Assembly: GCF_014203225.1 (NCBI RefSeq)
Contig: NZ_JACHIO010000006.1
Coordinates: 124,001 to 188,000 of the forward strand
Direction of reading: 5' to 3'
Length of the DNA stretch: 64,000 nt
Origin: Granulicella mallensis
GTDB lineage: Bacteria; Acidobacteriota; Terriglobia; Terriglobales; Acidobacteriaceae
Below the pieces are notes generated by a model, which ran no database searches, was not told the origin of the DNA, and saw nothing but the letters and a program-made list of their open reading frames with translations. The position numbers were made by a program, and so were the translations under genes. Below, one piece after another: positions 6,026 to 21,840 of this stretch (its first letter is position 1; each line of letters starts with the position of its first letter).

Positions 6026-6203
6026 TTGTTTGTTTTTCGTCGTCATCCTGAGCCGCAGGCGAAGGACCCCCGCATTGGGCACCCCCACGGTATCCTTGCA
6101 GCGGCAAGCGTACAGGGCTAATGGGTCACCCACTAGATGCGTGGCCCCACTCAATGCGGGGGTCCTTCGCGTACCGCTCAGGATGACGGCGAAAAACAGG
6201 CAA
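6026..6203 (+). repeat. Long inverted repeat, family copy A (between prpC and prpD)
   Basis: The left arm reads TTTTTCGTCGTCATCCTGAG, then continues GCCGCAGGCGAAGGACCCCCGCATTG. The right arm is its near reverse complement: CAATGCGGGGGTCCTTCGCG, then TACCGCTCAGGATGACGGCGAAAAA. A spacer of about 70 bases separates them. The transcript could fold into a hairpin of roughly 45 bp. It sits inside the prp operon, so it may attenuate or stabilise the message. Related copies lie at 30812-31010, 33772-33972 and, as a relic, at 51150-51200. Confidence 0.85.
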
Positions 6204-6289
6204 CGGCAAGAGTAGTGGCAACGGGAACAGCAGCAGGATCACCAGCAGCTTCAGAAGCAGAAAGAAAAGCAGAGGCGCAAACACCTTCC

Positions 6290-7738
6290 ATGTCCAGCCA
6301 TATCTCCAACGTCCGCCCCGAGTTCGACCAGCCGCTCATCGACATCGTCGACTACGTCCTGAATTACAAGATCGAAAGCCCGCTCGCCTACGAGACCGCG
6401 CGTTACTGCCTGCTCGACACGCTCGGCTGCGGCCTGCAGGCGCTCGACTTCCCAGCCTGCACCAAGCTGCTTGGCCCGCTGGTGCCGGGGCTTACGATGA
6501 CCAACGGCGCGCGCGTTCCAGGCACCAGCTACGAGCTCGATCCCGTGCAGGCGGCCTTCAATATCGGCACCATCATCCGCTGGCTCGACTTCAACGACAC
6601 ATGGCTTGCAGCCGAGTGGGGACACCCTTCCGACAACCTCGGCGGCATCCTTGCGGTCGCCGACTGGCTCTCGCGTAACGGCAGGCAGCTCACAATGCGC
6701 GACGTGTTGACGGCCATGATCAAGGCCCACGAGATTCAAGGCTGCCTCGCGCTCGAGAACTCTTTCAACAAGGTCGGTCTCGATCATGTGGTGCTGGTGA
6801 AGGTCGCCTCTACCGCAGTGGTTGCGCAGATGCTGGGCCTACCCCGCGAGCAGATTCTCAATGCTGTCTCCCTGGCCTGGGTCGACGGCCAATCGTTGCG
6901 CACCTATCGCCATGCTCCCAACGCAGGCTCGCGCAAGAGCTGGGCCGCAGGCGATGCGACCTCGCGGGCGGTGCGGCTCGCCCTGATCGCGCAGACCGGG
7001 GAGATGGGTTATCCCTCCGTGCTGAGCGCAAAGACCTGGGGATTCTACGACGTCAGCTTCAAGGGCCAGCCCTTCAAATTTCAGCGCCCGTACGGCAGCT
7101 ACGTCATGGAGAACGTGCTCTTCAAGATCTCGTTCCCCGCCGAGTTCCATTCTCAGACTGCCGTGGAAGCAGCCATGACCCTGCACGCTCAGTTGGCAGC
7201 CATGGGTAAGACCGCAGCGGACATCGAGCGGGTCACCATCCGCACCCATGAGGCCTGTATCCGCATCATCGACAAGCAGGGGCCGCTGAATAATCCCGCG
7301 GACCGCGACCACTGCATTCAGTACATGGTGGCCGTGCCGTTGATCTTCGGCCGTCTCACCGCCGAGGACTACGAAGACGCCGTCGCACGGGACACGACCT
7401 GGGGACCGCGCATCGATGCCGTGCGGGCGCGGATCGTCTGCGCCGAAGACCCGCAGTACACCGCCGACTACCACGCCCCCGAGAAGCGTTCGATCGCCAA
7501 TGCGCTCACCGTTGAGTTGAGTGACGGAACGGTCCTGCCCGAAGTAGCCGTCGAGTACCCCATCGGACACCGGTTGCGGCGCGGCGACGGCATTCCGCTG
7601 CTGCTCGACAAGTTTCGGCAAAACCTCGAGCGCCGGCTCTCGCCCGAGGCCCAGCAGAAGATCCTCGCCGCTTCATCCGAACAGGCAAAGCTTGAGGCCA
7701 TGCCGGTGGATGAGTACGTAGGACTCTATACCGTCTGA
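6290..7738 (+). CDS. prpD: 2-methylcitrate dehydratase (MmgE/PrpD family)
   Basis: PrpD dehydrates 2-methylcitrate to 2-methyl-cis-aconitate without an Fe-S cluster. The start is ATG 6290, giving 482 residues, the usual PrpD length; the open frame upstream to 6137 only reads through the inverted repeat. Family signatures are [74 protein letters not shown] and [14 protein letters not shown]. The gene completes a prpBCD set. No acnD/prpF pair or propionyl-CoA synthetase is in view, so the hydration step probably uses a general aconitase. A PrpR-type regulator is not seen. Confidence 0.95.
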
Positions 7739-7808: not shown

Positions 7809-9782
7809 ATGCGCAAGGCCACAATCGGTATCTCTGCCGCTCTTCTCATCCTTGTGATCGGCGGCGCGGGCTTTGCTCTCTTCAGAATCAACTTAACCCT
7901 GCGGAGTACCCGCGAGCGAGTGGACACCGAGGGCAACCTGGCCTTCGATCTGCTGGCACTGGATAGCTCTTCCTCAGGTGCACAAGGCCCCAAAAGCGGC
8001 TTCGAATCTCTTCCCTCCCCTAACAACGCCGTCGCTGGCGCGTCCTTCCGCGGCAAGCTTTACCTGGCTGGACCGGGAGGGCTGGCCGACTACTACAAGC
8101 CGGATGCACCACCTGAGCTGCTTCAGGCCGGCCGGGATCTTCCCTCCGCGGCGATCACCGCCCTCGCCACAGGCAGGCTGCACGGCGGCGGGACCGCAAA
8201 GTACCTATTCGCGGCTACGCAGGGGGAAGGCCTGCTCCTGCTCCCCGACGATACAACGAAGCCTATCCGGCAACTTCGGGCCTCAGACCCCACAGAGCGG
8301 GACATCACCGCGGTATTGTCCCTCGCCTCGGGCGATCTGTTGATCGGCACACGCAGGGCGGGACTACTCCTCTACAACGGCAAGACGTTGCGGCTGTTCA
8401 AACCCGAGTTCGCAGGACTCCCCATCACCGCACTCGCCGGAGACGAAAGCGACTTCTGGGTGGGAACGCGCACCAGGGGCGTATGGCACTGGCATGCCGG
8501 CCAACTGGATACCTTCAACCAGAATGCGGGATTACCCGACCCGGAGGTGGAAGACATCGTCGTCGGCGCGGCGGGAGTCTTCGTCGGCACACCGCTGGGG
8601 GTCGCCGAGTTCACGAATGGACGTCCTGCCAGGGTGCTCGCACAGGGTTTGTTCGCGCATTCTGTGGCGCTGGATGAAAACATCCTGATGGTTGCGACCA
8701 TCGACCAGGGCCTGCATGAGATCGACTTGAGGCCGCGCCAGCCTCTGCATCAGCCATCGGCAGACGAGGGCCTGAATCATGCGCACCTCTTCACGGCGGA
8801 CGGAGCCTTGTTTGCGGTGGGCGACGGCAAGGTGCTACGCCACGGACGCGGCGGCATCAATGGAGACTGGCAAACAATTATCTCCGCGCCGCCGCAATCG
8901 CTCACCGACCGCAACGTCACCTCGTTGAACTTCGCGCCGGATGGCCGCCTCTGGATCGGCTACTTCGACCGTGGCGTCGACGTCTTGAACCTGCAGAACG
9001 GCCACGCCGAACACGTGGAGGACGACCATGTCTTCTGCGTGAACCGCATCGTCACCGATCCTCTGCGGCAGACGATGGATGTCGCCACGGCGAACGGCCT
9101 GGTACTCTTCGACCCCTCCAGGACCACACCAACAGAACGGCAGGTGCTGCTGCGCCGCGACGGCCTGATCGCCGACCAGGTAACCGACATCGCCTTTACC
9201 CATGAGGGCATGACACTCGCCACCCCGGCCGGGATCACGTTCTTTACCCCGTCCGGCGCGCAGAGCCTCTATGCCTTCCAGGGGCTGGTCAACAACCACG
9301 TCTACACGCTGGCCGCGGACCGGACCAATGGACACCTGCTGGCCGGGACGCTGGGTGGGATCTCGATCCTCGACGACGAAGCCGTGCGCCAGAACGTGAC
9401 CCTGAAGAACTCCGGGCTGAAGCGCAACTGGATTACCGCGATTCTGCGGGTGCCGGAGGCGGGCACAGCCGACACCTGGTTCGTCGGCACGTACGGCGGA
9501 GGCATCGTGCAGATGGACGCTGCCGGACACATCACAGCCATGGACGGCGCAACGACCTCCGCGGTGATCAACCCCAACGCGATGCTTGCAACAGCGCAAC
9601 ACGTCTTCGCGGGCAGCCTCGACAACGGCCTGCTGATCTACAACCGCGCCTCGCGCCGCTGGTCGCAGATTACGGCAGGATTGCCCTCAAAAAATGTAAC
9701 AGCCTTCGCAGAAAACGGAGGTGAGCTTTACATTGGTACGGACAATGGAATCGTACGGATCGCCGAAGCGAGGCTGCCATGA
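7809..9782 (+). CDS. Membrane-anchored two-component-propeller protein without kinase
   Basis: ATG 7809 is listed as the start; a TTG at 7782 is possible, but neither has a strong ribosome binding site. One N-terminal transmembrane helix (about residues 5-25) is followed by some 620 residues of repeated beta-propeller units. These carry the hallmark turns of two-component regulator propellers: GDLLIGTRRAGLLLYNG, DFWVGTRTRGVWHW, GRLWIGYFDRGVDVLN, GHLLAGTLGGISIL and ELYIGTDNGIVRI. Such propellers usually form the periplasmic sensor of hybrid kinases. Here no kinase or output domain follows, so the protein is probably a ligand- or protein-binding periplasmic scaffold. It overlaps the next gene by four bases and heads a coupled four-gene cluster. 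Confidence 0.8.
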   Translation: MRKATIGISAALLILVIGGAGFALFRINLTLRSTRERVDTEGNLAFDLLALDSSSSGAQGPKSGFESLPSPNNAVAGASFRGKLYLAGPGGLADYYKPDAPPELLQAGRDLPSAAITALATGRLHGGGTAKYLFAATQGEGLLLLPDDTTKPIRQLRASDPTERDITAVLSLASGDLLIGTRRAGLLLYNGKTLRLFKPEFAGLPITALAGDESDFWVGTRTRGVWHWHAGQLDTFNQNAGLPDPEVEDIVVGAAGVFVGTPLGVAEFTNGRPARVLAQGLFAHSVALDENILMVATIDQGLHEIDLRPRQPLHQPSADEGLNHAHLFTADGALFAVGDGKVLRHGRGGINGDWQTIISAPPQSLTDRNVTSLNFAPDGRLWIGYFDRGVDVLNLQNGHAEHVEDDHVFCVNRIVTDPLRQTMDVATANGLVLFDPSRTTPTERQVLLRRDGLIADQVTDIAFTHEGMTLATPAGITFFTPSGAQSLYAFQGLVNNHVYTLAADRTNGHLLAGTLGGISILDDEAVRQNVTLKNSGLKRNWITAILRVPEAGTADTWFVGTYGGGIVQMDAAGHITAMDGATTSAVINPNAMLATAQHVFAGSLDNGLLIYNRASRRWSQITAGLPSKNVTAFAENGGELYIGTDNGIVRIAEARLP

Positions 9783-12199
9783 AGGATCAGCACACAAGCT
9801 TGACCTCTCGACCGAAGCAGCGCGGCACAGCAGCTTTCCTACTGGCTCTGTTGTTTGCGGCGCCTGCCTTCGGCCAGTCTGGGGTGCTGCTCCCGAGGGA
9901 CAAAGACAAGCCGGACCCGGCGGTGCTCTCGCTCGAGGAGATGACCGTCAACGTCGTCATCGACAATGGCGACGCCCGCGTCTCCGTGACGCAGATCTTC
10001 GCCAACCACTCGAAGGAGATTGAAGAAGGGACCTACGTCTTTGCCCTGCCTACCGGCAGCACCGTATCGGACTTCGCGACGTGGGATGGGCCGGTTCGCA
10101 TTCCCGCAGTGGTCCTGGAACGCAAGCGCGCCGAAGAGGTCTATCAGCAGGCCCGCGCGCAGGCCATCGATCCCGGACTGCTGGAAGCGGGCGAGCGCGA
10201 TGGCAACGACCCAAAGGAAGACTCCACCTTTACGGCGAAGATCACGCCGATCCCCGCGTTCGGCACGAAGCGGCTGGAGCTGGAATACCACCAGGTGCTG
10301 CCGGTCGATCGCTACATGCAAGGCTTTGTGCTGCCGCTAAAGCCTGCGCAGTATCAGGTGCAGACGACGGCACATCTCAAGCTGCGGTTCGAGATGCACT
10401 CCACCCAGGCGTTCGATCACTTCGCGCTGGAGAGCAAGGCCTTTCCGCTGCAGTTCAGCCAGCAGGACACCCATACGGTCGTCGGCACGTGGGAAGGCTC
10501 CAACGTCTCTCTCGGAGAAGACTTCCACGCAGCGTGGCAGCTCGACGCGCGCTCCTCCGACAACCTCTCCGTGATTGCCTTCCGCAATCCCAATCCGGGG
10601 CTGCCGTCCCCGGACGAGACCTCGCCCAAACCACGCCAAGCGGAGCCCGGCTTCTTCCTGGCGCAGACACTGATCGCTCCGCCTGCGGAGGCGGCACCTA
10701 CACAGACGGCTCCACGCGACGTCGTGCTCCTGCTCGATACCTCCCTCTCGATGCAGTGGGACAACCTCGAACGCAGCTTCGCGGCGCTACAGGCCGTGCT
10801 GTTGAGTTTGAAGCCCGCCGATCATTTCTCGCTGTTGCTCTTCAACCAGGACGTCACCTTATTCAAGCCCGAGCCTCTCGCAGCAACTCCCGAGGCTGAG
10901 CAGCAGGCCTTGGATTTCGTGCGCGCCAGCAAGCTGCGCGGCGGCACGGACCTGGGCAAGGCGTTGACGGCAGGACTGGCACTGGCGAAGCTGCCGAACT
11001 CCAGCCTGTTCCTGCTGACGGACGGCAACTCGGATCGCGGGACTACCGTGATCACGGGCAAGATTGCCACAGCCTATGCGCAGCAGTGGAAACAGTCTCC
11101 GACGCATCCACGCACCAACATCTTCGCCGTAGGAGATAACGCCAACCTGCCCTTGCTGAAGCTGCTGGCACAGAATGACGGTGTGCTGGAGAACGTGCTC
11201 GCGACCGAGCCTGTCGAAGCCAAGCTCAGCACCTTCCTCGCGCATAGCACCTCGCACCCGGTCGGCGGTCTGCACCTCGACATCTCGCCGTCGAGTGCAA
11301 TTCATACCGTCTATCCGCTCGATGACTCGGTCTATGCGGGCTCCATCGCAGCATGGGTTGGCGACTATACGGCGCCCGTAAAACAGGTCAGCTTTACAGC
11401 GCATGCGGACCGGGGCGACAAGCCTTTGAACGCCGCAGCGAAGATCGACCTGCCCGTCGAATCGCTCGACCACCCGCAGCTTCCGAGGCTTTGGGCCCAG
11501 GCACGCGTGAATGCGCTGCTCGACCAGATTGCGCGCGATGGAGAGACACGCGCGGTGATCGACGAGATCATCGAGCTCTCGCGCCGCTACAAGTTCGTCA
11601 CGCCGTATACCTCGTTTCTTGCGGTGCCTCGCTCCCTGCTGCGTCCGCGTGTCATACGGCCCGGCGATCCGGTGCTCCGCGTCCATACCGATCCGGCGAT
11701 CACCTCGGTCATCGCGCTGTTTCCCTTCGGGCTGACGCAGCCGCTGCGGCACATCGCCTCGGAAGACCAGCAGAAGGGCCCTGACAGCAATCGACTATGG
11801 GAGACACGCTTTCTCGCGCCGACTGATATGCAGGACGGCACCTACACGGTGCGGCTCATTCTGCGTGACCTGAAGGGCAACACCTACGCCGAGCAGAAGA
11901 CCTTCGTCATCGCCTCGACCCCACCAGCCGTACGCGTGAAGCTGGACCACACGAGATTTCATCGCGGCGATGCGATGCTCATCAAGGCCGGTGCCACCGC
12001 CACGACACGCACCCTGACAGCACGGCTGCAGGGCGCGATGCCGGTCGATCTCCGCTGGAACAGTGCCGCAGCCGCCAGCACGGGAGAGATGCGCATCCCG
12101 GATACGCTCGCTCCCGGCTCCTACACGCTTTCGGTAACGGCTGAGGACATCGCCCATAACGTTGGCTCGCAGGAGGTGCAGATTGAAGTGGTCCCGTAA
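9779..12199 (+). CDS. Exported VIT and von Willebrand factor A domain protein
   Basis: The ATG overlaps the previous stop (ATGA). A signal peptide covers residues 1-33 (ends FGQSG). A VIT domain spans about 50-180 (LSLEEMTVNVVIDNGDARVSV ... EYHQVLP). A VWA domain spans about 313-490 with a complete metal-ion-dependent adhesion site: DTSLS at 320-324, the Thr of RGGTDL and the Asp of LTDGNSD. The C-terminal 130 residues look like Ig-type beta-strand domains. VIT+VWA proteins are related to the inter-alpha-trypsin-inhibitor heavy chain and to sortase-target proteins, and bind partner proteins through Mg2+. There is no LPXTG or transmembrane tail, so periplasmic or surface location by partner binding is inferred. 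The next gene starts inside its 3' end. Confidence 0.85.
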   Translation: MKDQHTSLTSRPKQRGTAAFLLALLFAAPAFGQSGVLLPRDKDKPDPAVLSLEEMTVNVVIDNGDARVSVTQIFANHSKEIEEGTYVFALPTGSTVSDFATWDGPVRIPAVVLERKRAEEVYQQARAQAIDPGLLEAGERDGNDPKEDSTFTAKITPIPAFGTKRLELEYHQVLPVDRYMQGFVLPLKPAQYQVQTTAHLKLRFEMHSTQAFDHFALESKAFPLQFSQQDTHTVVGTWEGSNVSLGEDFHAAWQLDARSSDNLSVIAFRNPNPGLPSPDETSPKPRQAEPGFFLAQTLIAPPAEAAPTQTAPRDVVLLLDTSLSMQWDNLERSFAALQAVLLSLKPADHFSLLLFNQDVTLFKPEPLAATPEAEQQALDFVRASKLRGGTDLGKALTAGLALAKLPNSSLFLLTDGNSDRGTTVITGKIATAYAQQWKQSPTHPRTNIFAVGDNANLPLLKLLAQNDGVLENVLATEPVEAKLSTFLAHSTSHPVGGLHLDISPSSAIHTVYPLDDSVYAGSIAAWVGDYTAPVKQVSFTAHADRGDKPLNAAAKIDLPVESLDHPQLPRLWAQARVNALLDQIARDGETRAVIDEIIELSRRYKFVTPYTSFLAVPRSLLRPRVIRPGDPVLRVHTDPAITSVIALFPFGLTQPLRHIASEDQQKGPDSNRLWETRFLAPTDMQDGTYTVRLILRDLKGNTYAEQKTFVIASTPPAVRVKLDHTRFHRGDAMLIKAGATATTRTLTARLQGAMPVDLRWNSAAAASTGEMRIPDTLAPGSYTLSVTAEDIAHNVGSQEVQIEVVP

Positions 12200-15100
12200 T
12201 CGCGGAGTCTGCACAACGGCCGTGCTGGGCCTCGTTACCGTAAGCTTTTACGCGCGAGCCGAGCTGGCTCCGTGGCTGCAAAGCGTTGTCTCCGGTTCGG
12301 ACATCGAAGCCGCGCTCTATCGCGCGATGGACCTGCCCGGGGTACGAACGCTCTATCTCCGGCCGCCGACTGAGGCACGCAATGAGTTGAACGGCCTGCT
12401 CAAGAGCAAATCGGACGCCGCACAGCTTTATGCTTTGCGCGCGCATACCGAAGAGCAGGCGCTCGACTTCAGCGCCGCCGAACAGGATTGGAAGACCTTC
12501 GTCGCACATGCAACCGGCAAGCAGGCAGCAGAGCTCGAGCTCGCTGACTTCTACCATCGCCGCGTCCAAGGCCCGCAGGAGATTGCGGCACTGGAGCAGG
12601 CTGCTACTTCTCCCGCTGCCGCTGGAGAAAAGTTCATCGCAGCCGACAAGCAGCAGGCCTGGCAGGCATTCGCGCGAGCCCTCACCGTCGCTCAGGAACA
12701 GGCGCTTGGCGATGAGGCCACCACGAACATCTACAAAGCGTGGATGGCCCGCTATCCCGCTGAACCCGCCGTACGAGCGGCCTTCGTCAACTCGCTGATG
12801 AAGAGACAGCGCTATGACGAGGCCGAGCAGGCCATCACCGAGTACCGGACGGCCTTCCCGCAGGACCAGATCTTTCCAATCAAGGCTTCGGCTCTGGTGG
12901 CGCTGCAACAGGGCGACACCGCCGCAACCACCAAGGCGCTCGCGCTCTTCGACAAGGCCTATCAGCCCCTCTGGCCCACGGAGTTGGTGCAAAGCTACTT
13001 CCAGTTGCTCGCAGCGACCCACACGCAGCACACCATGCTCGCCGACACACGCGCGCGACTGCTACGGAACCCCGATGACTACAACGCAGCCACGCGCCTC
13101 TTTCACTACTACCAGCAGCAGGGCCGCAGTGACGCGGCAGCAAACGCACTGGCCGAGTACGGTGCCAGTAAAGAGAGCCGCCATGCGGCCTGGTCCGCCG
13201 ACGAACTCTTCACCTTCGCCGCGCTGCTCGATAACGCGACACAGTATGAAGAGGCGGCGCGCTACTACTTCGCACTCGCGGGTACACAGGGACATCTGAC
13301 GGCCACAACTCAGACGCCTGAAGAGGTTGGCCTCAGCGGCCTCATCCGCATTCTGCTGACCGCGCCGGAGCGCCCCATCGATCTGGGCTCAGGCAATCTC
13401 TCGATCTATCGCGATCTCGCGACCGTCGACCAGGGCCCCGGCTATCTTAATGGCGTGCTCTCCCTATGGTTCAACTCCGCTAATCCCTCTACGGAGTTTC
13501 ACGACGAAGAAGTAAAGGCCACGCCCTACTTTCATCGCGCGAAAGCAGCCGAACTGCTCGCCATACTCGACCAGCGCTTTCCTGCATCGACCGCGAGGCC
13601 TGCACTGCATGCCGCCCTGATTCGCGCCTACACCAGCTACGGCGAAGACGCTGCGATCCAGAAAGCCGGGCAGCAGTTTCTCGCGGACTTCCCGCACGCC
13701 GGCGAACGGCTCGAAGTTGCATTAGAAGTAGCCGACGCCGATGCCCGGCAGAACGACACGAAGGCGGAGTTCGGGCTGTACGACAATCTGCTCACCGAAC
13801 TCGCCGGCAATCTTCAAGGCATGCCGCTAACGGCAGCAGGCGCGGTAGCAACACCTGCGCCCGAAGCTCCAACAGACAGCAGCGACACGACAGACAGCGC
13901 GACAGCCTCCGCAGCTACCGCCCCGGCGAGTGCTGTACTGAAGCCATCGCTCGCTATGCCCGTGGCTGCCCCTGCAGCTACCGCCACGGCAGAAGCTTAT
14001 CGCCAGATTCTTGATCGCTATCTCGGGCGGCTCACGACGGCTAACCAACTGCCCGCAGCCCTTGCGGTCCTGCGGCACGAGCTTGACCGCAATCCGAACG
14101 ATCCCCTGCTCTACGCAAAGCTCGCAGACTTTCTGCAGCAGAACAACCTCGCAGCGGAACAGGAAGCGGTCTACCAGCAGGCGCTGGCACGTTTCAACGA
14201 CACGACCTTCTACGACAAGCTCGCGCGCTTCTACCTGCGCCAGAAACGGCAGGAGGACTTCGACACGCTTACGCGCAAGGTCGTCGATATCTTTCAAGGC
14301 ACAGAGCTTGAACAATACTTCGGCAATGTCACGAACAGCTGGCCCCAGGCCTACCTGCAACTCAACCTGTATGCGCACAAGCGCTTCCCGCACGATCTGA
14401 CCTTCACGCGCAATCTCCTCACTGCCTATGTCTCGAAAGACACCGCCGATTCTGCCGCATGGGAACAGTTGATCCGCGAGCATTGGCAGGAGTCGCCCGA
14501 GCTGCAGGCGGAGTTCTTCGATTACCTCAGCCGAACAGACAAGCTCACGGCGGAGATGACGGCACTGCAAGCGCTTGTGCCTGCGGCTGCCGCGCAGCAG
14601 CAAAACCCCGCGGCGACACGCGAGTTGGCGCAGTTACAGCTTTGGCAGTCGCACTTCGAGCAGAGCGCTCCGTTATTAGATGAGTTAGCCCACGCCTATC
14701 CCGCCGACGCCTCAGTCGGCGAAGATGCGGCCAGCGTCTTCCGTTCCCTGGCCTACTACGATCCCTCGCAGATTGAGCGTGCTGTTGCCATCGAGAAGCA
14801 TCTCTCGGAGGCAGATCCCACAAACCTCGACAGGCTTGCAACCATCGGCGATATTTACGCCGACAGCACCTCCTCCAGCCTGAATCTCCCCGTAGACCAT
14901 CAGCTCGCGCAGGCCGCGCCCTACTGGAAGCGGATGAGTGCCGTACATCCGGGCGTCTCCGACGGGTACCTGCAATCCGCGACCGTCTTCTGGGACTACT
15001 TCCAGTTCGACGAGGCCATCGCGCAGATCGAAGCCGCGCGCAAACAGTTCAACCATTCTGCGCTCTATGGCTATGAAGCAGGCGCAATCTACGAGAACAA

Positions 15101-18100
15101 GCGCGACTTTACGCGAGCGATTGCGGAGTACGTGCGCTCGGCAACAGCGCAGAGCACCGATCAGTCGTCAGCGGACGAGTCAGGTTTCAGCGCACGCGGG
15201 AGGCTGCTGACACTGGCCACGCGCCCCGAGACAGCAGATCTCGTCGACCAGGAGACAGAGCGCAGCGCCACACAACATCCCACGCTGGAAGCGCTGAAGC
15301 TGCGCATCGATATCCTGCAAGCCCGGCAACAGACCTCCAGCATCGATGCCCTGGTACAGGCCGCTATTCAGCGAGCGGCCAACGTGGACGATGCGGCGCA
15401 GCTCGTGGAGCTTAGCCAGAGCAGCCATCTTCCGCAGGCCTACCAGGCGGCGCTCAAGCGCGAGATCGCGCTGGCTGTCGATCCCGTGCAGCGCATCGAG
15501 CTGCAGTATCAGCTGGTGCGCGCCTATGAGGACCAGAACGATATCGCGAATGCACAGCGCCTCATCGAGGCTGTCTACAAGGACAACGCGAAGATCCTGG
15601 GAGTGGTTCGCGCGACGACCGACTTCTACTGGAACAACAAGCAGCCGCCGCGCGCCGTGGCTACGCTGATACAGGCCTCCCACGAGGCTAATCCAGCACT
15701 GGCGCATAACTTCACGCTGGAGGCTATCGCCAGGTCGAACCAGAGCGGCGACTTCGCAGGCGCACGAACTTTGCTGAAACCGTTGCTCGCCAACGATCCC
15801 TACAACGCGCAGTACCTCGCGCTCACTGCGGACAGTTACGCACTCGCGCATGATGCCACAGGACTGCGCGACTTCTATGCAGCTACCCTTGCCTCGCTCA
15901 AGAGCGCTCCGTTGAACGCGCAACTGAGTGCACTGGAGAAGCGCGACAAGATCGCACTCGTGCGCCAGGGCATGATCCTCGCCCTGACCGACCTCAAGGA
16001 TTATAGCGGCGCCCTCGAGCAGCATATCGCCCTGATCAGTGCCTTCCCCGAAGACACAAACATCCTGCAGAACGCGGCATCCTATGCTCGCCTGCATAGC
16101 CGCGAACAGCAGCTTGTCGCCTTCCTCAACAAAGCAGTAACCGATTCGCCGCGCGACTCGCGTTTTGCCATCGACCTCGGCCGCGTGGACGTGCTCTTCG
16201 AGGACTACGACGGCGCGCTGGCTGCCTACTCCAAGGCGATTGCGATTCGCAAAGACCGGCCAGACCTCTACATCGCCCGCGTCGATATCGAAGAACATCA
16301 ACAGTCTTACGAGGCCGCCTGTGCGGACTACGACAGGCTCTACCTGCTGACCTACAAAGACCCGCAGTGGATGGAGAAGGCCGCGCTAGCACGCGCTCGC
16401 CAGGGACGCGCCGACCTGGCCGTGAAGGCGCTGCAGACCGCATGGATCGAAGGCCATCCCCCGTCTGCGGCCAATAACTTCCGTGTCGCCACCCAACTCG
16501 CCGATTGGGACATGCTGGCCGAAGCGCGCAAGTTCGCTGATGAGGGAGTGAAACTCGCCGGCGATAACCTGCTCACCAGCGCCCAGAACGCAGACGGCGC
16601 TGTGCAATATGCAAGCCTGCTCGGTCGTCAACGACAGGCTCAAGAAGCATTGACGTTGCTGAAGAGTGCCCGTGCGGCAGCAGAGATGTCTCCCTCCTCA
16701 CCGGCACTCATCGTCAAGCAGGTGGAAGAAAAGGGCATCGCCTCCGTCACAGATGCGGATTGGCGCAAACAGCAGGTAGAACAACGCAGGCAATTTGCGC
16801 AGAACACCTTCCGCCGCGCGGTACAGGAGTTGAGCACAACCGTAGGAGACTTCTACACCCCGGAAGAGAAGCTGGCCTATGCTCGGCTGCTGGACACTGA
16901 ACGCTTGAATCGTCCGCTGAAAGAAGTAGCCGATGTCTGGATTCCTGCAGCACAGGCCGCCGGATTGAAGGACCGTGAGGCTGCCTGGCGTCGAGATATA
17001 TTGCTCGGAGTCAACAGGAAACTCGCCGAGATACAACTCGAACCCTTCGACACGCTGGAAGCGCAGCGCATGGACAACCTCACACGCGCGCAGACGCTGG
17101 ATACGTATGCTGCAACGCTCAAGAGCGAAGAGCAGCCGTCCGTGCTCGCCCTGGCTGCAACCGCGTGGCGTGGTGCTGGAAACTTCGAGTCGGAGGTGCG
17201 AGATCTCCGCAAGCTGGTCCTCAGCCATCAGGAAGAAGAACAGCAGCAGCGGTTGTTTGCCGTGCTGCTGCAGCACAGTCCTGCCGCACTGGTTCGATTG
17301 GCTGCCGCAAAGGGTAACTACGCCGATGCTGCAGCAAACTATGTAGTAACCAATGGCTCCAGAGCCTTGGCCTACCAGGTAGTGGATGCGCGCACCGCAG
17401 CCAATCCGCCGGTATGGCCCACGGCCATGAACGCGCTGCTGGGCCTGTACTTCGGCGACACTTCACTGCGCACCGACGCAGCCTTCCAGACTGTGCTCGC
17501 TAACGGAACAATCGGCGAGCACTTGAAGGTGGAACCGGATGAAGCGAAACGGATCACCGGCGATCCGTGGTTCTACTACGCCATGCGCTATGGCGTGTGG
17601 CGCACCCTTGCAGCGAAGCCTGACGCCGACCCGGAAGATTACCTGCCTGCCGGACTGGAGATCAGCCCGCAGAGCAGCAATAGCTATATCGCGCTCGCAC
17701 AGGCGTACGTCGACGCGCACAAGTACGACGCCGCGCTCACCGAGTATCGCCACGTAGAAGAGCTTGCCCCGGACGACCCTGAACCCAACCGGGCGATGGC
17801 GGAGATCCTCTGGACGGAGGGACATCACGACGAAGCCCTCGCCCAATGGAAGCAGGCGCTTGCGAAGCTGCGCGCCATGGTGGAAGAACAATCTGTGCCG
17901 GAGAGCTTCTGGACAAACTTCACCAGCATCGCAAACGATGCTGGTGACTACCAGATCGGCCCCAGGCTGAAGTCCGAAATGGACGCGGTCCTCGAGCCCT
18001 ACATCCGCAAAAACGGAAGCTATCGCTCGACCGAACTATTGCACGCGGCGTATGTCGCGTTGGAAAAAGTAAGCGCCACCGAAGCCGCCGATTGGGTGCT

Positions 18101-19604
18101 GGCCCTGGCGGCAAACACAACCGACCAGCGCGCAATTCTTTCCAGTCTGACGGATGAGACCTGGTTCCCTCGCGCGCAGTTCGGAGACATCTATCGTCAC
18201 GAGCTGGTACTGACTCAGGCCGAAGCCGCAAAAGCGAAGACCACCGAAGACGATGGCGCACAGAGCGTGCTCACCTCCATCCAACTCAAGTACCTCAAGT
18301 GGCTCCTGCAACAGGGACAGACCGCAGAGGCGCAGCGCCTGCTCGATAGCATTCCTGCAGCCCAGAGGCAAAGCGAAGAGATGCAGACGGTCACCCTGCT
18401 GCTGGCGGCGCGCCAGTCGCGGCTCGCGCAATGGATTGCGGACTACCAGAACGATCCATCCCATGTACCTGCGCTGGCTACGCTCTCCAGCGTGGCGAAT
18501 CAGCTTCGCCTGAAACAGGACAGCGCCAACAGCCGCCTGCTGCTCGAGTATGTCTTTCAGCAGAAGACCGCACTGCAAGAGCTTGCGGCACCAGACTATC
18601 TCGCACTGGCAGAAGCACGGCTCGCAACCAACGACGTACCCGGCGCTCTCGACCTGCTGCACAGGCTCACGCTGCAGGGAGACCTGTACGAAAACCTCGA
18701 CACTGCCGCCGCTTTGTTGATGCGCACAGGCCATGTGGCCGAGGCGCTGCCTTTGCTGACGAAACTCGCAAACGGCAGCCCCTGGGACTTCGACTATCGA
18801 CGGCGGCTTGGCGAAGCACAGCTTGCGAGCAAGCAGGATGCGGCAGCCGAAGCGACACTGAAGGCAGTGGCGGCAAGCGACAACTCTCCTTACGACGACA
18901 GAGCCAAAGCCGCTGAGGCAATGCGTGCAATCCCCGGAACACGCAGCTTCAGCAGCGCGGAGCTGACACAACTGGCGAACGCCGCACCAGGCACTCCACA
19001 GGCAGACCAGCCCTACTTTCTCTATGCACGCATGAGTGAGGCCGCGGCCCTGCCCACGGCGCAGCGCGGCACATTGCTGCGTGCGGCCATCATGGATGCA
19101 CCGGCGTCTCTGCTCGACAAGTTGCGGCTCGATCTCTTCACCGCCGAAGTCGCCGCAAATCAATATGAGAGGGCCAACACTGCCGTTGCGCCTCTCCTCT
19201 CGGAGAACCCTTCTCTACGCACAGCACCGTCGGAGGAAAGTACAGAGGGGACCTCCTCAGATATCTCGGAGGCAACGACGGAAGATTCGGACGCGCAAGA
19301 GACGCAGGCTGCGACCATCCTCACCCAACCGCAGGACAAGCGTGATTTCCTTCTCGCGCTGGCGACGATGGAAGAGCATCTCTCCGAAGAACAGCAGGCC
19401 ATCGAAGATCTGCAGACGGCCTCGCAACTGACCGAGGACAAGGTCCAACAGTCGAAGATTGCGCTCCGCATCAGCTCGCTTCAAGAACGCCTGAACGTGA
19501 GACAAGAGAACGCTACCCGCCGGCCAGTCATTCAGACCTCCACTCAACAGGCTGTACTCGTAAGGCCGCGACTCACGGCCAGCGCAACGAAGGTGCACCC
19601 ATGA
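12183..19604 (+). CDS. Giant TPR-repeat exported protein (about 2,473 residues)
   Basis: The best start is TTG 12183, with AGGAGG six bases upstream, inside the end of the VIT/VWA gene (17-base overlap). The product has an N-terminal hydrophobic segment (about residues 9-24) ending FYARA, consistent with secretion or anchoring. Nearly the whole length is helical pairs with TPR spacing and signatures such as ALAAYSKAIAIRKDRPDLYIA, YDAALTEYRHVEELAPDDPEPN and ALAQWKQALAKL. A low-complexity Ala/Thr/Pro linker lies at about 552-602 and an acidic Ser/Glu/Thr stretch near 2,350. No enzymatic motif is visible. A solenoid of this size probably acts as a scaffold for the VWA and propeller proteins. The stop overlaps the next ATG. 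Confidence 0.8.
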   Translation: MKWSRNRGVCTTAVLGLVTVSFYARAELAPWLQSVVSGSDIEAALYRAMDLPGVRTLYLRPPTEARNELNGLLKSKSDAAQLYALRAHTEEQALDFSAAEQDWKTFVAHATGKQAAELELADFYHRRVQGPQEIAALEQAATSPAAAGEKFIAADKQQAWQAFARALTVAQEQALGDEATTNIYKAWMARYPAEPAVRAAFVNSLMKRQRYDEAEQAITEYRTAFPQDQIFPIKASALVALQQGDTAATTKALALFDKAYQPLWPTELVQSYFQLLAATHTQHTMLADTRARLLRNPDDYNAATRLFHYYQQQGRSDAAANALAEYGASKESRHAAWSADELFTFAALLDNATQYEEAARYYFALAGTQGHLTATTQTPEEVGLSGLIRILLTAPERPIDLGSGNLSIYRDLATVDQGPGYLNGVLSLWFNSANPSTEFHDEEVKATPYFHRAKAAELLAILDQRFPASTARPALHAALIRAYTSYGEDAAIQKAGQQFLADFPHAGERLEVALEVADADARQNDTKAEFGLYDNLLTELAGNLQGMPLTAAGAVATPAPEAPTDSSDTTDSATASAATAPASAVLKPSLAMPVAAPAATATAEAYRQILDRYLGRLTTANQLPAALAVLRHELDRNPNDPLLYAKLADFLQQNNLAAEQEAVYQQALARFNDTTFYDKLARFYLRQKRQEDFDTLTRKVVDIFQGTELEQYFGNVTNSWPQAYLQLNLYAHKRFPHDLTFTRNLLTAYVSKDTADSAAWEQLIREHWQESPELQAEFFDYLSRTDKLTAEMTALQALVPAAAAQQQNPAATRELAQLQLWQSHFEQSAPLLDELAHAYPADASVGEDAASVFRSLAYYDPSQIERAVAIEKHLSEADPTNLDRLATIGDIYADSTSSSLNLPVDHQLAQAAPYWKRMSAVHPGVSDGYLQSATVFWDYFQFDEAIAQIEAARKQFNHSALYGYEAGAIYENKRDFTRAIAEYVRSATAQSTDQSSADESGFSARGRLLTLATRPETADLVDQETERSATQHPTLEALKLRIDILQARQQTSSIDALVQAAIQRAANVDDAAQLVELSQSSHLPQAYQAALKREIALAVDPVQRIELQYQLVRAYEDQNDIANAQRLIEAVYKDNAKILGVVRATTDFYWNNKQPPRAVATLIQASHEANPALAHNFTLEAIARSNQSGDFAGARTLLKPLLANDPYNAQYLALTADSYALAHDATGLRDFYAATLASLKSAPLNAQLSALEKRDKIALVRQGMILALTDLKDYSGALEQHIALISAFPEDTNILQNAASYARLHSREQQLVAFLNKAVTDSPRDSRFAIDLGRVDVLFEDYDGALAAYSKAIAIRKDRPDLYIARVDIEEHQQSYEAACADYDRLYLLTYKDPQWMEKAALARARQGRADLAVKALQTAWIEGHPPSAANNFRVATQLADWDMLAEARKFADEGVKLAGDNLLTSAQNADGAVQYASLLGRQRQAQEALTLLKSARAAAEMSPSSPALIVKQVEEKGIASVTDADWRKQQVEQRRQFAQNTFRRAVQELSTTVGDFYTPEEKLAYARLLDTERLNRPLKEVADVWIPAAQAAGLKDREAAWRRDILLGVNRKLAEIQLEPFDTLEAQRMDNLTRAQTLDTYAATLKSEEQPSVLALAATAWRGAGNFESEVRDLRKLVLSHQEEEQQQRLFAVLLQHSPAALVRLAAAKGNYADAAANYVVTNGSRALAYQVVDARTAANPPVWPTAMNALLGLYFGDTSLRTDAAFQTVLANGTIGEHLKVEPDEAKRITGDPWFYYAMRYGVWRTLAAKPDADPEDYLPAGLEISPQSSNSYIALAQAYVDAHKYDAALTEYRHVEELAPDDPEPNRAMAEILWTEGHHDEALAQWKQALAKLRAMVEEQSVPESFWTNFTSIANDAGDYQIGPRLKSEMDAVLEPYIRKNGSYRSTELLHAAYVALEKVSATEAADWVLALAANTTDQRAILSSLTDETWFPRAQFGDIYRHELVLTQAEAAKAKTTEDDGAQSVLTSIQLKYLKWLLQQGQTAEAQRLLDSIPAAQRQSEEMQTVTLLLAARQSRLAQWIADYQNDPSHVPALATLSSVANQLRLKQDSANSRLLLEYVFQQKTALQELAAPDYLALAEARLATNDVPGALDLLHRLTLQGDLYENLDTAAALLMRTGHVAEALPLLTKLANGSPWDFDYRRRLGEAQLASKQDAAAEATLKAVAASDNSPYDDRAKAAEAMRAIPGTRSFSSAELTQLANAAPGTPQADQPYFLYARMSEAAALPTAQRGTLLRAAIMDAPASLLDKLRLDLFTAEVAANQYERANTAVAPLLSENPSLRTAPSEESTEGTSSDISEATTEDSDAQETQAATILTQPQDKRDFLLALATMEEHLSEEQQAIEDLQTASQLTEDKVQQSKIALRISSLQERLNVRQENATRRPVIQTSTQQAVLVRPRLTASATKVHP

Positions 19605-21340
19605 TGAAGCGATTCTATTTCGCACTCGCAACCATGTTGCTCCTCGGAGTCCTGGGAGTCTGCGGAGCCGCGGTTTACACGGCACTTCAATCATCCCCTC
19701 CCGTCAACCTGTCCCTGGCTTCTTTCGCTCCGCAGGGTGCCCTTCTGTCGATCGAGTCTCCCGACTTCAAGGCCCTGCTCAAATCCTGGTCGAGCTCGCA
19801 AGAGGAGCAGCGCTGGCTGAAGAGCGATAACTACGCAAGCTTTTCGCACTCTCGTCTATTCTCCCGCCTGGGCGAAGCGCAGGATCAATTCGCGGCCACC
19901 GCGGGGTTTCCGCCTGACGCACAGTTCCTGCAACAGGCCGCCGGTGGCCAAAGCCTCTTCGCCTGGTATGACATCGGCAACCTGGAGTTCCTCTACATCA
20001 CGCGCATGCCCAGTGGAGAAGCAGCCAAAACCCCGCTGCTGCAAATGCGCGACAAGTTTGAAGAGCGCAAGGCAGGAGATGCCTCCTTCTTCGTCCGCAC
20101 CGAGGGCGACCCCGCGCATACCGTGGCCTTCGCCGTGCATGGCGATTATCTGCTGCTTGCCACACGGGAAGACCTGATTGCCAACGCGTTGCAGTTGATG
20201 CAGCAACCGGTGGACGCAACGTTGCTGCACGAACGCTGGTATGCGGAGGCCATCGCTGCCGCGAAAGAACAACCCGGCAACCTGCGCATGGCTTTGAACA
20301 TGGCGAAGATCGTGCCCTCACCCTACTTCCGCAGCTATTGGATACAGCAGAACATCACGGAACTCAAGCAATACAGCTCAGCGCTGAGCGATCTCTACCT
20401 TACTCCCGAGAGCTTTCGCGAAGAGCGCGTATTGATCGCCTCAAACCCTGACAAAGAAGCAACCAGCGCAGACCTTGCCCCCGTGCTGGGATATCTTCCT
20501 CAGAACATCGGCGTCTACCGCGCACAGGCTCAGCCCACCACGGCTTCGATCCTTCATCAGTTTGAAGACAAGCTACTCTCGCGCAATACCAGCGCCTATC
20601 GCGACACCCACATCGCGCCGGTAGCCGATCTCTCCACTCCCATTGCTGGAGATACGTCGAACTTTGAAGAACGCATCGACGAGACATCGGTCGTCGTGCA
20701 ACCGCGTGCAGCTTCTCTTTCGCAATTGCAGGACCTGCTCATCGCCGCACATCCCGAGGCGATGCTCGTCTTTTCTTCAGCAAACCAGCCTAAGACTCAG
20801 GCCAACGAAACAGCCTTCTTCCCCATTCATACAGCGGTCGTCCTCTCCTCCTCCGCCGGATGGAACCAGGCTGCATGGCAACAGGCTCTCAGCGCCGCGC
20901 TGGCACCGCGACTTACCATCGGCAAGGCTGGGCTCGCCTGGCAGGAGCATCACCATGACAATGTGAGCTGGGTAGAGCTGAGTGGAATACACGGTCTCGT
21001 GCTGGCGATTCAGGGTAACGTCTGCGTGGTTGCTTCTGATGAAGCGACCTTGCTGCTTCTTTTCGAAGCCTCGCATCATGCAGCTTCCACGCCGAAGCCT
21101 GCAAAGATCATCGCGGGCTTCGACCATCGCTCCGAGCGGGAGAGCTTTGTGCGATTGACCCCTCTGCTGGATGGCTCCGGCAGCTCGCAGTCAGGCGGTG
21201 GTGACACCCCACCGTTCTTCTCCAGGAACATGGCCAGCCTGAGCAGCACGTTCCAGGATCTCGATGCCGAGACCTTCACAGAATCCCCCATGGGCAGCGG
21301 AACGACGCACCAGACTGTTCTCTATCAATGGCGGCACTAG
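19601..21340 (+). CDS. Exported/anchored protein of unknown function, last gene of TPR cluster
   Basis: ATG 19601 overlaps the TPR stop (ATGATGA). There are 579 residues with an N-terminal hydrophobic helix at about 4-26, so the protein is anchored in the inner membrane or secreted. The rest has alternating strands and helices: LASFAPQGALLSIESPDFKALLKSW, AFAVHGDYLLLATREDLIANAL, and a second half that repeats this pattern (ELSGIHGLVLAIQGNVCVVASDEATLL). This suggests two related domains, distantly like DUF3352-type proteins; that resemblance is weak and from memory. It is the distal gene of the propeller, VIT/VWA and TPR cluster, and its stop meets a convergent gene. Confidence 0.7.
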   Translation: MMKRFYFALATMLLLGVLGVCGAAVYTALQSSPPVNLSLASFAPQGALLSIESPDFKALLKSWSSSQEEQRWLKSDNYASFSHSRLFSRLGEAQDQFAATAGFPPDAQFLQQAAGGQSLFAWYDIGNLEFLYITRMPSGEAAKTPLLQMRDKFEERKAGDASFFVRTEGDPAHTVAFAVHGDYLLLATREDLIANALQLMQQPVDATLLHERWYAEAIAAAKEQPGNLRMALNMAKIVPSPYFRSYWIQQNITELKQYSSALSDLYLTPESFREERVLIASNPDKEATSADLAPVLGYLPQNIGVYRAQAQPTTASILHQFEDKLLSRNTSAYRDTHIAPVADLSTPIAGDTSNFEERIDETSVVVQPRAASLSQLQDLLIAAHPEAMLVFSSANQPKTQANETAFFPIHTAVVLSSSAGWNQAAWQQALSAALAPRLTIGKAGLAWQEHHHDNVSWVELSGIHGLVLAIQGNVCVVASDEATLLLLFEASHHAASTPKPAKIIAGFDHRSERESFVRLTPLLDGSGSSQSGGGDTPPFFSRNMASLSSTFQDLDAETFTESPMGSGTTHQTVLYQWRH

Positions 21341-21816
21341 TGATGTGTGGCGAGCACCTGGTCGCGGTATTTAGTCCAGGAACCAGCGTCTACGCCCAGC
21401 AACTGCCCCAGGTGCTCCGCCGAAGAACAAGGTACTGGGTGCGAACCTACACCTTCCGGCAACTCTCGTGACTGAGCCTCATCCGTAAGAATCACTAATG
21501 GATTCGAGGCATCGTCTGCGATGCCCTGCATGTTGAAGATGACTAAATCCGCCGCCTTGGCGATGTCATACACAAAGGTAATCACGGTAGGCGAGAAGCT
21601 GCGCAGATTGAAGAAGCAGGTGCTGAAGTCCTCATCGCTCTCCAGCCCTTTCGCCCGGATCTCGACACAAGACTGATCGGGAAAGGTTGCGAAGTAGGTT
21701 GCGAACTTATCGCAACCATCCTTGCAATGCTGTTGCAACAACGACAGTACGACCTTTTTGTTAGCCAAAGCCTCTTTCCCGGCCTTGAATCGAAAAAGAT
21801 AGAGATCAAAACTCAC
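21337..21816 (-). CDS. Hypothetical small soluble protein
   Basis: GTG 21816 is preferred because AGGATGG lies eight bases upstream and the product then begins MSFDLYLF; a TTG at 21834 is possible. The protein has 159 residues and no signal or membrane segment. It includes two Cys in HCKDGCDKF and a Phe/Tyr-rich core (CFFNLRSFSPTVITFVYDIAKAADLVIF). I do not recognise the family; it looks like a cytoplasmic immunity-like or DUF protein. It lies 24 bases downstream of kdpC on the same strand and could be read with the kdp operon. It converges on the TPR cluster with a four-base overlap. Confidence 0.55.
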   Translation of the reverse strand: MSFDLYLFRFKAGKEALANKKVVLSLLQQHCKDGCDKFATYFATFPDQSCVEIRAKGLESDEDFSTCFFNLRSFSPTVITFVYDIAKAADLVIFNMQGIADDASNPLVILTDEAQSRELPEGVGSHPVPCSSAEHLGQLLGVDAGSWTKYRDQVLATHH

Positions 21817-21840
21817 GGAAAACCATCCTGCCAATCGGCG

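Follow-up and report, generated by a model that had tools for sequence, protein, structure and literature searches.

A conserved four-gene envelope cluster of Acidobacteriota as the possible core of a peptidoglycan-remodelling machine

We analyzed a stretch of 64,000 nucleotides from Granulicella mallensis (NCBI RefSeq assembly GCF_014203225.1, contig NZ_JACHIO010000006.1, positions 124,001 to 188,000 of the forward strand; hereafter the window), in which four consecutive genes encode exported or membrane-anchored proteins: a sensor-type propeller protein (gene 1), a protein with VIT and VWA domains (gene 2), a giant tetratricopeptide repeat (TPR) protein (gene 3) and a protein without a named family (gene 4; Table 1). 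An original prediction for this DNA had described the four as a cluster with overlaps of 4–17 bases, and in this it held, consecutive genes overlapping by 4, 17 and 4 bases. The 17-base overlap between genes 2 and 3 is supported by the TTG of gene 3, which lies six bases past an AGGAGG. Overlaps of this kind suggest translational coupling, whilst the further claim that the four proteins must be made in fixed ratios was an overstatement.

Table 1. Features of the four-gene cluster, in positions of the window
Feature	Position	Strand	Length	Description
Gene 1	7809..9782	+	657 aa	N-terminal membrane helix and all-beta double beta-propeller
Gene 2	9779..12199	+	806 aa	Signal peptide (by eye), VIT, VWA and C-terminal Ig-like module
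Gene 3	12183..19604	+	2473 aa	TTG start; TPR protein, exported or anchored (signal peptide, by eye)
Gene 4	19601..21340	+	579 aa	Membrane helix at the N-terminus, then a pair of related alpha/beta domains
VIT domain of gene 2, residues 52-170	9932..10288	+		Pfam
VWA domain of gene 2, residues 314-465	10718..11173	+		DxSxS...T...D metal site at residues 320-415
C-terminal module of gene 2, about residues 606-806	11594..12196	+		Extent of family-profile match
AGGAGG within the end of gene 2	12171..12176	+		Likely ribosome-binding site of gene 3, read from sequence

Gene 1 contains the propeller repeats of two-component regulators (Pfam Reg_prop, 1e-11). Its AlphaFold2 model, with a mean predicted local distance difference test score (pLDDT) of 90.9, has one long N-terminal helix (residues 2-42) and 55 strands, a number about right for two seven-bladed propellers. 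The closest PDB structures were the periplasmic domain of BT4663 (E 1e-22) and its kin, and the model also matched other double propellers including PorZ (5m11, E 1.5e-16). BT4663, the heparin/heparan sulphate sensor of a hybrid two-component system, shares the double propeller fold and the Reg_prop repeats with gene 1. In contrast to BT4663, gene 1 has a membrane helix only, with no histidine kinase or regulator domain detected by Pfam, and the protein ends after the propeller. It therefore answers to the predicted sensor-type propeller without a kinase.

Gene 2 matched the Pfam families VIT (1.5e-21), VWA_3 (8e-11) and Big_13 (1e-7), and is the sole VIT match in the G. mallensis genome. The metal site of its VWA domain is complete, as had been predicted (D320/S322/S324/T390/D415); the two aspartates and two serines were kept in 33/33 aligned rows and the threonine in 32, with serine in its place in one. 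A profile of the gene 2 family matched the inter-alpha-trypsin inhibitor (ITI) heavy chains H4 and H1, and the match to H4 covered positions 37-606 (E 5e-55), spanning the VIT, the VWA and the next domain. Gene 2 shares with the ITI-heavy-chain-like proteins a VIT domain ahead of a VWA domain whose metal site is complete, but differs from ITIH1 and ITIH4 in being bacterial, in its conserved C-terminal module past the match and in its unrelated operon context. This module marks the gene 2 family, since the profile match of many generic VIT/VWA relatives ends at about 607 and that of family members at 787-789. We rejected TIGR03788, the marine proteobacterial sortase target family, for gene 2: the VIT/VWA layout is common to both, but the score was 159.7 bits against a cut-off of 551.65, and by eye the C-terminus (...EVQIEVVP) has no LPXTG and no hydrophobic stretch, hence no sorting signal. 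Second VIT genes in two other genomes (L182 in G087 and L183 in G098) are solitary full-length VIT/VWA paralogues, each next to a gene that begins, by eye, like MobA.

The product of gene 3 matched TPR_19 (6e-13) in five stretches, as well as TPR_14 and TPR_11, which bears out the predicted TPR protein of nearly 2,500 residues. Gene 4 matched no Pfam or NCBIfam family above cut-off. Its structural model (mean pLDDT 82.4) shows a helix followed by two related alpha/beta domains, and the internal duplication is real, as the two halves align with each other (hhalign E 4e-7); the anchored, family-less and duplicated protein of the prediction was thus recovered. The top five fold matches of gene 4 were all to the treponemal protein TP0453, and were weak (E 1e-4, template modelling score 0.46 by target length, root-mean-square deviation 7.8).

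A VIT alignment was scanned against 84,980 species genomes, giving 367 relatives, and synteny was counted from the best 80 of these (including two copies of one sequence), all of which we take, going by their names, to be acidobacterial. At loci among these 80 that had room for the gene concerned, gene 1 was found in 66/68, gene 3 in 70/70 and gene 4 in 60/60. Among 396 Acidobacteriota genomes that were sampled, a full-length VIT gene, defined as a match reaching model position 787 or more, is present in at least 42. The four genes are contiguous and in the same order in 32 of the at least 42 carriers, G. mallensis included, which excludes a distribution restricted to near-identical genomes. 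Genes 2-4 occur without a recognized gene 1 in two carriers (G098 and G322), the core is split between contigs in three (G248, G328 and G421), and it is dispersed or lacks the giant TPR gene in five (G092, G097, G127, G153 and G192). Gene 4 was detected in 33/396 genomes by a single-sequence search, in which the weakest rows may be chance, and in 30/396 by profile; the cluster is patchy, gene 4 being present in 9/41 genomes of the nearest set, G. mallensis among them. From these data the core is, as judged by sequence, a conserved gene set recurring across Acidobacteriota, a range that is set by the acidobacterial sample. In three of the carriers with a dispersed core (G127, G153 and G192; L068-L070 and L179-L181) genes 2 and 4 were seen at separate places, with no propeller or giant TPR gene alongside. 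Genome G357 has the core cluster at two places (L057 and L060), the first without a recognized gene 1.

The junctions between the genes are conserved as well. Counted by in-frame start codons, that is by predicted starts, in 112 distinct loci, a start at -4 was found at the junction of genes 1 and 2 in 73/94 and at that of genes 3 and 4 in 68/90, whilst genes 2 and 3 overlap by 5-25 bases in 82/102 (79/101, 74/98 and 90/110, respectively, when eight repeated loci are included). Compared with the nearest relative, the cluster genes have dN/dS values of 0.06-0.15 (dS 0.22-0.34), by which measure all four are under purifying selection in the lineage of the window. Together, low dN/dS and conserved overlaps argue that the four-gene arrangement is not due to chance. 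Trees of genes 1-4 gave distance correlations of 0.96-0.99 over 76 tips (75 of 80 four-gene loci, left after removal of identical VIT ends, plus the window) and shared 47-53 of 73 splits.

Clustering the flanking open reading frames (ORFs) of 120 loci into families revealed one family directly after gene 4 in 40/120 loci and a second family next to it in 12/120. The first (gene 5) encodes a transpeptidase-type protein (PF00905) and the second (gene 6) a SpoIID protein (PF08486). The next-largest flank clusters (10 and 9 loci, at a stricter cut-off) lie at varying distance and on varying strand, and no third family was found at a fixed place beside the core by this clustering, in which neighbors were not annotated individually; by eye, the gene after the last enzyme varies by genus in 11 extended loci. 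Of 84 distinct loci that contain genes 3 and 4 with 600 bases of room or more, 52 have gene 5 (56/90 with the repeated loci), and 47 of these 52 offer a start codon in frame by which gene 5 overlaps gene 4. The locus of Bryobacterales bacterium F-183 (L149) has the core with genes 5 and 6, and that of Granulicella paludicola DSM 22464 (L120) the core alone.

In all, 56 gene 5 and 27 gene 6 ORFs were found, and 37 and 12 of them were aligned. The penicillin-binding protein (PBP) motifs SxxK, SxN and KTG are present in 37/37 aligned gene 5 rows; of the 56 ORFs two are cut short, and 51 of the 54 uncut ones keep the three motifs. The active-site serine is S87 in L093. These motifs, three exceptions aside, are shared with the class B transpeptidases PBP2/MrdA and SpoVD. 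Gene 5 differs from these in being a short, stand-alone domain (whole proteins in the alignment have about 200-300 residues), and in scoring far under the PBP2 cut-off: the PBP2 model was matched by 36/37 rows, with 52 of 455 bits in one such row. Gene 6 matched solved SpoIID structures (4e-33). Its E109, numbered as in L118, aligns with the catalytic E101 of Clostridioides difficile SpoIID in 12/12 rows, and the zinc ligands H134, C140, H145 and C146 of that protein correspond to H137, C143, H147 and C148 of gene 6, which are kept in 11/12 rows. Excerpts of the C. difficile report state that E101 and C140 are required for activity and spore formation, and that the H/C/H/C zinc motif had been described as confined to C. 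difficile SpoIID (PMC6221140). On these alignments nearly every gene 5 and gene 6 protein retains its catalytic motifs.

Gene 5, gene 6 or both follow gene 4 in 22 of the at least 42 carriers. Nine have genes 5 and 6 separately (G069, G081, G103, G107, G207, G284, G292, G408 and G065, the last with gene 6 at the end of another contig), two have gene 6 alone behind the core (G160 and G229), and in 11 carriers, from families f25, f36, f41 and f86, a single ORF behind gene 4 fuses the two, the core being contig-split in two of them. In the fused proteins the SxxK, SxN and KTG columns are invariant (11/11), as is E372, which by reading of the alignments matches the catalytic glutamate. The SpoIID half is divergent, such that neither Pfam (E 0.001, one protein tested) nor the solved structures list a match, and it was recognized against the SpoIID alignment by hhalign (99.6%, E 1.4e-24). 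Fusions of transpeptidase and SpoIID also occur apart from the core, as single ORFs of 823-912 residues (L168:1746-4331, L169:1755-4460, L170:1367-4105 and L171:906-3377). Some of these have, by eye, an HExxH-like C-terminal region, and G026, one such genome, has no match to gene 4.

The presence of a transpeptidase, a SpoIID protein or both after gene 4 indicates that the unit is often larger than four genes, and points to peptidoglycan. We therefore propose, with confidence a little above even, that genes 1-4 form the conserved core of a machine that remodels peptidoglycan in the envelope, and that fuller versions of it also include the transpeptidase of gene 5 and the SpoIID-type enzyme of gene 6, which cleaves glycan strands. 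Both the formation of a complex and its function in the wall are what we infer from sequence. Gene 1 would be attached to the inner membrane, its double propeller facing the periplasm; by analogy with BT4663, it may read a glycan, the state of the wall or a protein partner. Gene 2 would act as a metal-dependent adaptor resembling the ITI heavy chains, gene 3 as a long periplasmic scaffold and gene 4 as a second membrane-anchored subunit. As one complex, the four would place and time bond formation by gene 5 and strand cutting by gene 6, the output being local making and cutting of peptidoglycan. In one eukaryotic case vWFA/VIT proteins are reported to interact with a WD40-repeat F-box protein (PMC10539598), which shows such a partnership to be possible and no more. 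The SpoIID of chlamydiae is reported to act on septal peptidoglycan (PMC6635528).

Several observations weigh against this proposal. Neither enzyme was seen beside the core in 20 of the at least 42 carriers (five of them with a dispersed core), which means that the core is not strictly dependent on genes 5 and 6. In a 47-genome panel, G. mallensis and 6/7 other Granulicella carriers lacked a SpoIID match and matched ordinary PBPs weakly at most, and SpoIID was retained in the seventh (G017); by Pfam at E 0.001 the G. mallensis genome has no SpoIID, and its five ordinary transpeptidase genes lie away from the cluster. A strict enzyme-scaffold model is challenged most strongly by this lack of both enzymes in the majority of Granulicella carriers. 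Three gene 5 ORFs, all from genus g49, have KTS for KTG (L073:18060-19112, L075:534-1574 and L076:555-1520), and one SpoIID protein (L050:17754-19259), in a genome without a transpeptidase partner, lacks all four zinc-type residues, possibly a step in decay. In families f25, f36, f41 and f86 gene 4 scored 9-47 bits where listed, and its identity there is mainly positional. The fold match of gene 4 to TP0453, being weak, is a lead only, and the co-variation of genes 1-4 is weakened by the mirror-tree correlation having no control gene. As both dedicated enzymes are missing from most Granulicella carriers tested, the core in this genus would either enlist housekeeping wall enzymes or fill a remaining structural role.

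A bolder form of the proposal is that of a phylum-wide, periplasm-spanning wall-remodelling complex, in which the propeller and the VIT/VWA adaptor, on a TPR scaffold of 2,500 residues, place the transpeptidase/SpoIID pair at one site, distinct from the divisome, the elongasome and the engulfment machinery. We put this forward tentatively, and think it somewhat more apt to prove wrong than right.

The original prediction had pictured the cluster as a periplasmic assembly or surveillance machine, loosely like Bat operons. A coherent, conserved envelope set was indeed found; genes 5 or 6 in 22 of the at least 42 carriers point away from a Bat-like or general surveillance role. This wall-enzyme clue was hidden from the earlier reading, as the window contains neither gene 5 nor gene 6. 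That the core is a loosely Bat-like machine for assembly or quality control of exported proteins, with the wall enzymes as its cargo or as a later addition, seems to us unlikely. Bat operons encode envelope VWA and TPR proteins with a MoxR-type ATPase, and the core resembles them in its VWA plus TPR composition; its propeller and TPR are protein-binding folds, and the carriers with no wall enzyme seen beside the core would suit such a role. However, no MoxR gene is linked to it in G. mallensis, as the prediction had noted: PF07726 scored above cut-off on contig C27 only and below cut-off on C2, whereas the window lies on C6, and a Bat aerotolerance operon was rejected. The core further differs in its VIT domain, propeller and giant TPR protein, and no Bat-named family was among the Pfam or NCBIfam matches. 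Wall enzymes adjoin the core in nine families of the phylum sample, and so look old and not late.

We consider it distinctly improbable that the cluster encodes a secretion or surface-structure assembly apparatus, in which SpoIID would make an opening in the wall for a TPR protein that reaches across the periplasm. Such an apparatus would make use of a large scaffold-type protein like that of gene 3, and the double propeller of gene 1 resembles PorZ of type IX secretion. Yet only the gene 5 and 6 families recur at a fixed place in the flank clustering, though a more loosely linked apparatus could escape it. Type IX secretion was rejected since the NCBIfam PorZ score of gene 1 (17 of 260 bits) and the other type IX matches are far under cut-off, and the PEP-CTERM system was rejected on NCBIfam scores likewise far under cut-off.

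The closest structures of gene 1, extracellular domains of two-component systems, would fit a signalling module in which the propeller senses a glycan and signals to a distant regulator by way of the VIT/VWA and TPR proteins. None of the four proteins has a kinase or regulator domain, however, and no third family stands at a fixed place beside the cluster, which leaves this a very improbable reading. That unrelated exported genes lie together here by coincidence can be dismissed, as order and overlaps are kept across families; at distant loci the identity of genes 3 and 4 with the window is down to about 22-30%, and gene 2 stays near 40%.

For the proposed remodelling machine, the nearest known relatives on the enzyme side are the SpoIID-SpoIIM-SpoIIP engulfment machine and the chlamydial SpoIID, with which gene 6 of the relatives shares the catalytic glutamate and a C. 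difficile-like zinc motif. It differs from SpoIID-SpoIIM-SpoIIP in that the partner is a transpeptidase; G. mallensis has no SpoIID match, and other lineages have SpoIID beside the core. In the open-access literature, searched by title or abstract start, no description of this gene set was found, and excerpts of two papers (PMC7074687 and PMC7315648) make no mention of VWA, tetratricopeptide or propeller. The prediction that no described system has this composition agrees with these results. The combination is without a counterpart found in the open-access literature, and we rate the cluster as new in composition, its recognizable parts coming from known families, gene 4 having none and the function being predicted.

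The surroundings of the cluster were also inspected. The genes upstream look like a methylcitrate pathway (one of them was checked); the prpD-like gene (6137-7738) probably starts further downstream than its listed ORF, as the match in most relatives begins at about residue 43-56 of that ORF. Downstream, on the opposite strand, lie a small ORF, kdpC and then kdpB and kdpA (the last two by eye). The end of the small ORF (21337-21834, - strand, 165 residues, no Pfam match) meets gene 4 tail to tail and overlaps its stop, the ORF lying between the cluster and kdpC. A fixed genomic site was rejected: prpD was present in 10/15 Granulicella genomes, and gene 1 adjoins it in G010 only among 11 loci with flanks of some 1.5 kb at most. 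A plasmid-borne cluster was rejected too, with no match to genes 2 or 3 on 72,556 plasmid records.

Among soil bacteria the Acidobacteriota are a major phylum, and little is known of their envelope biology. In the cluster, a transpeptidase and a SpoIID enzyme stand together with a sensor-type propeller, a giant TPR protein and a VIT/VWA protein resembling those found in animal plasma. One soil study reports an increase of spoIID genes in drought summers, with Acidobacteria, Actinobacteria and Proteobacteria as the main sources of the enriched genes (PMC10504347). The cluster bears on the role of SpoIID genes in bacteria that do not sporulate, and would let the coupling of wall synthesis and cleavage be tested directly outside the textbook machines.

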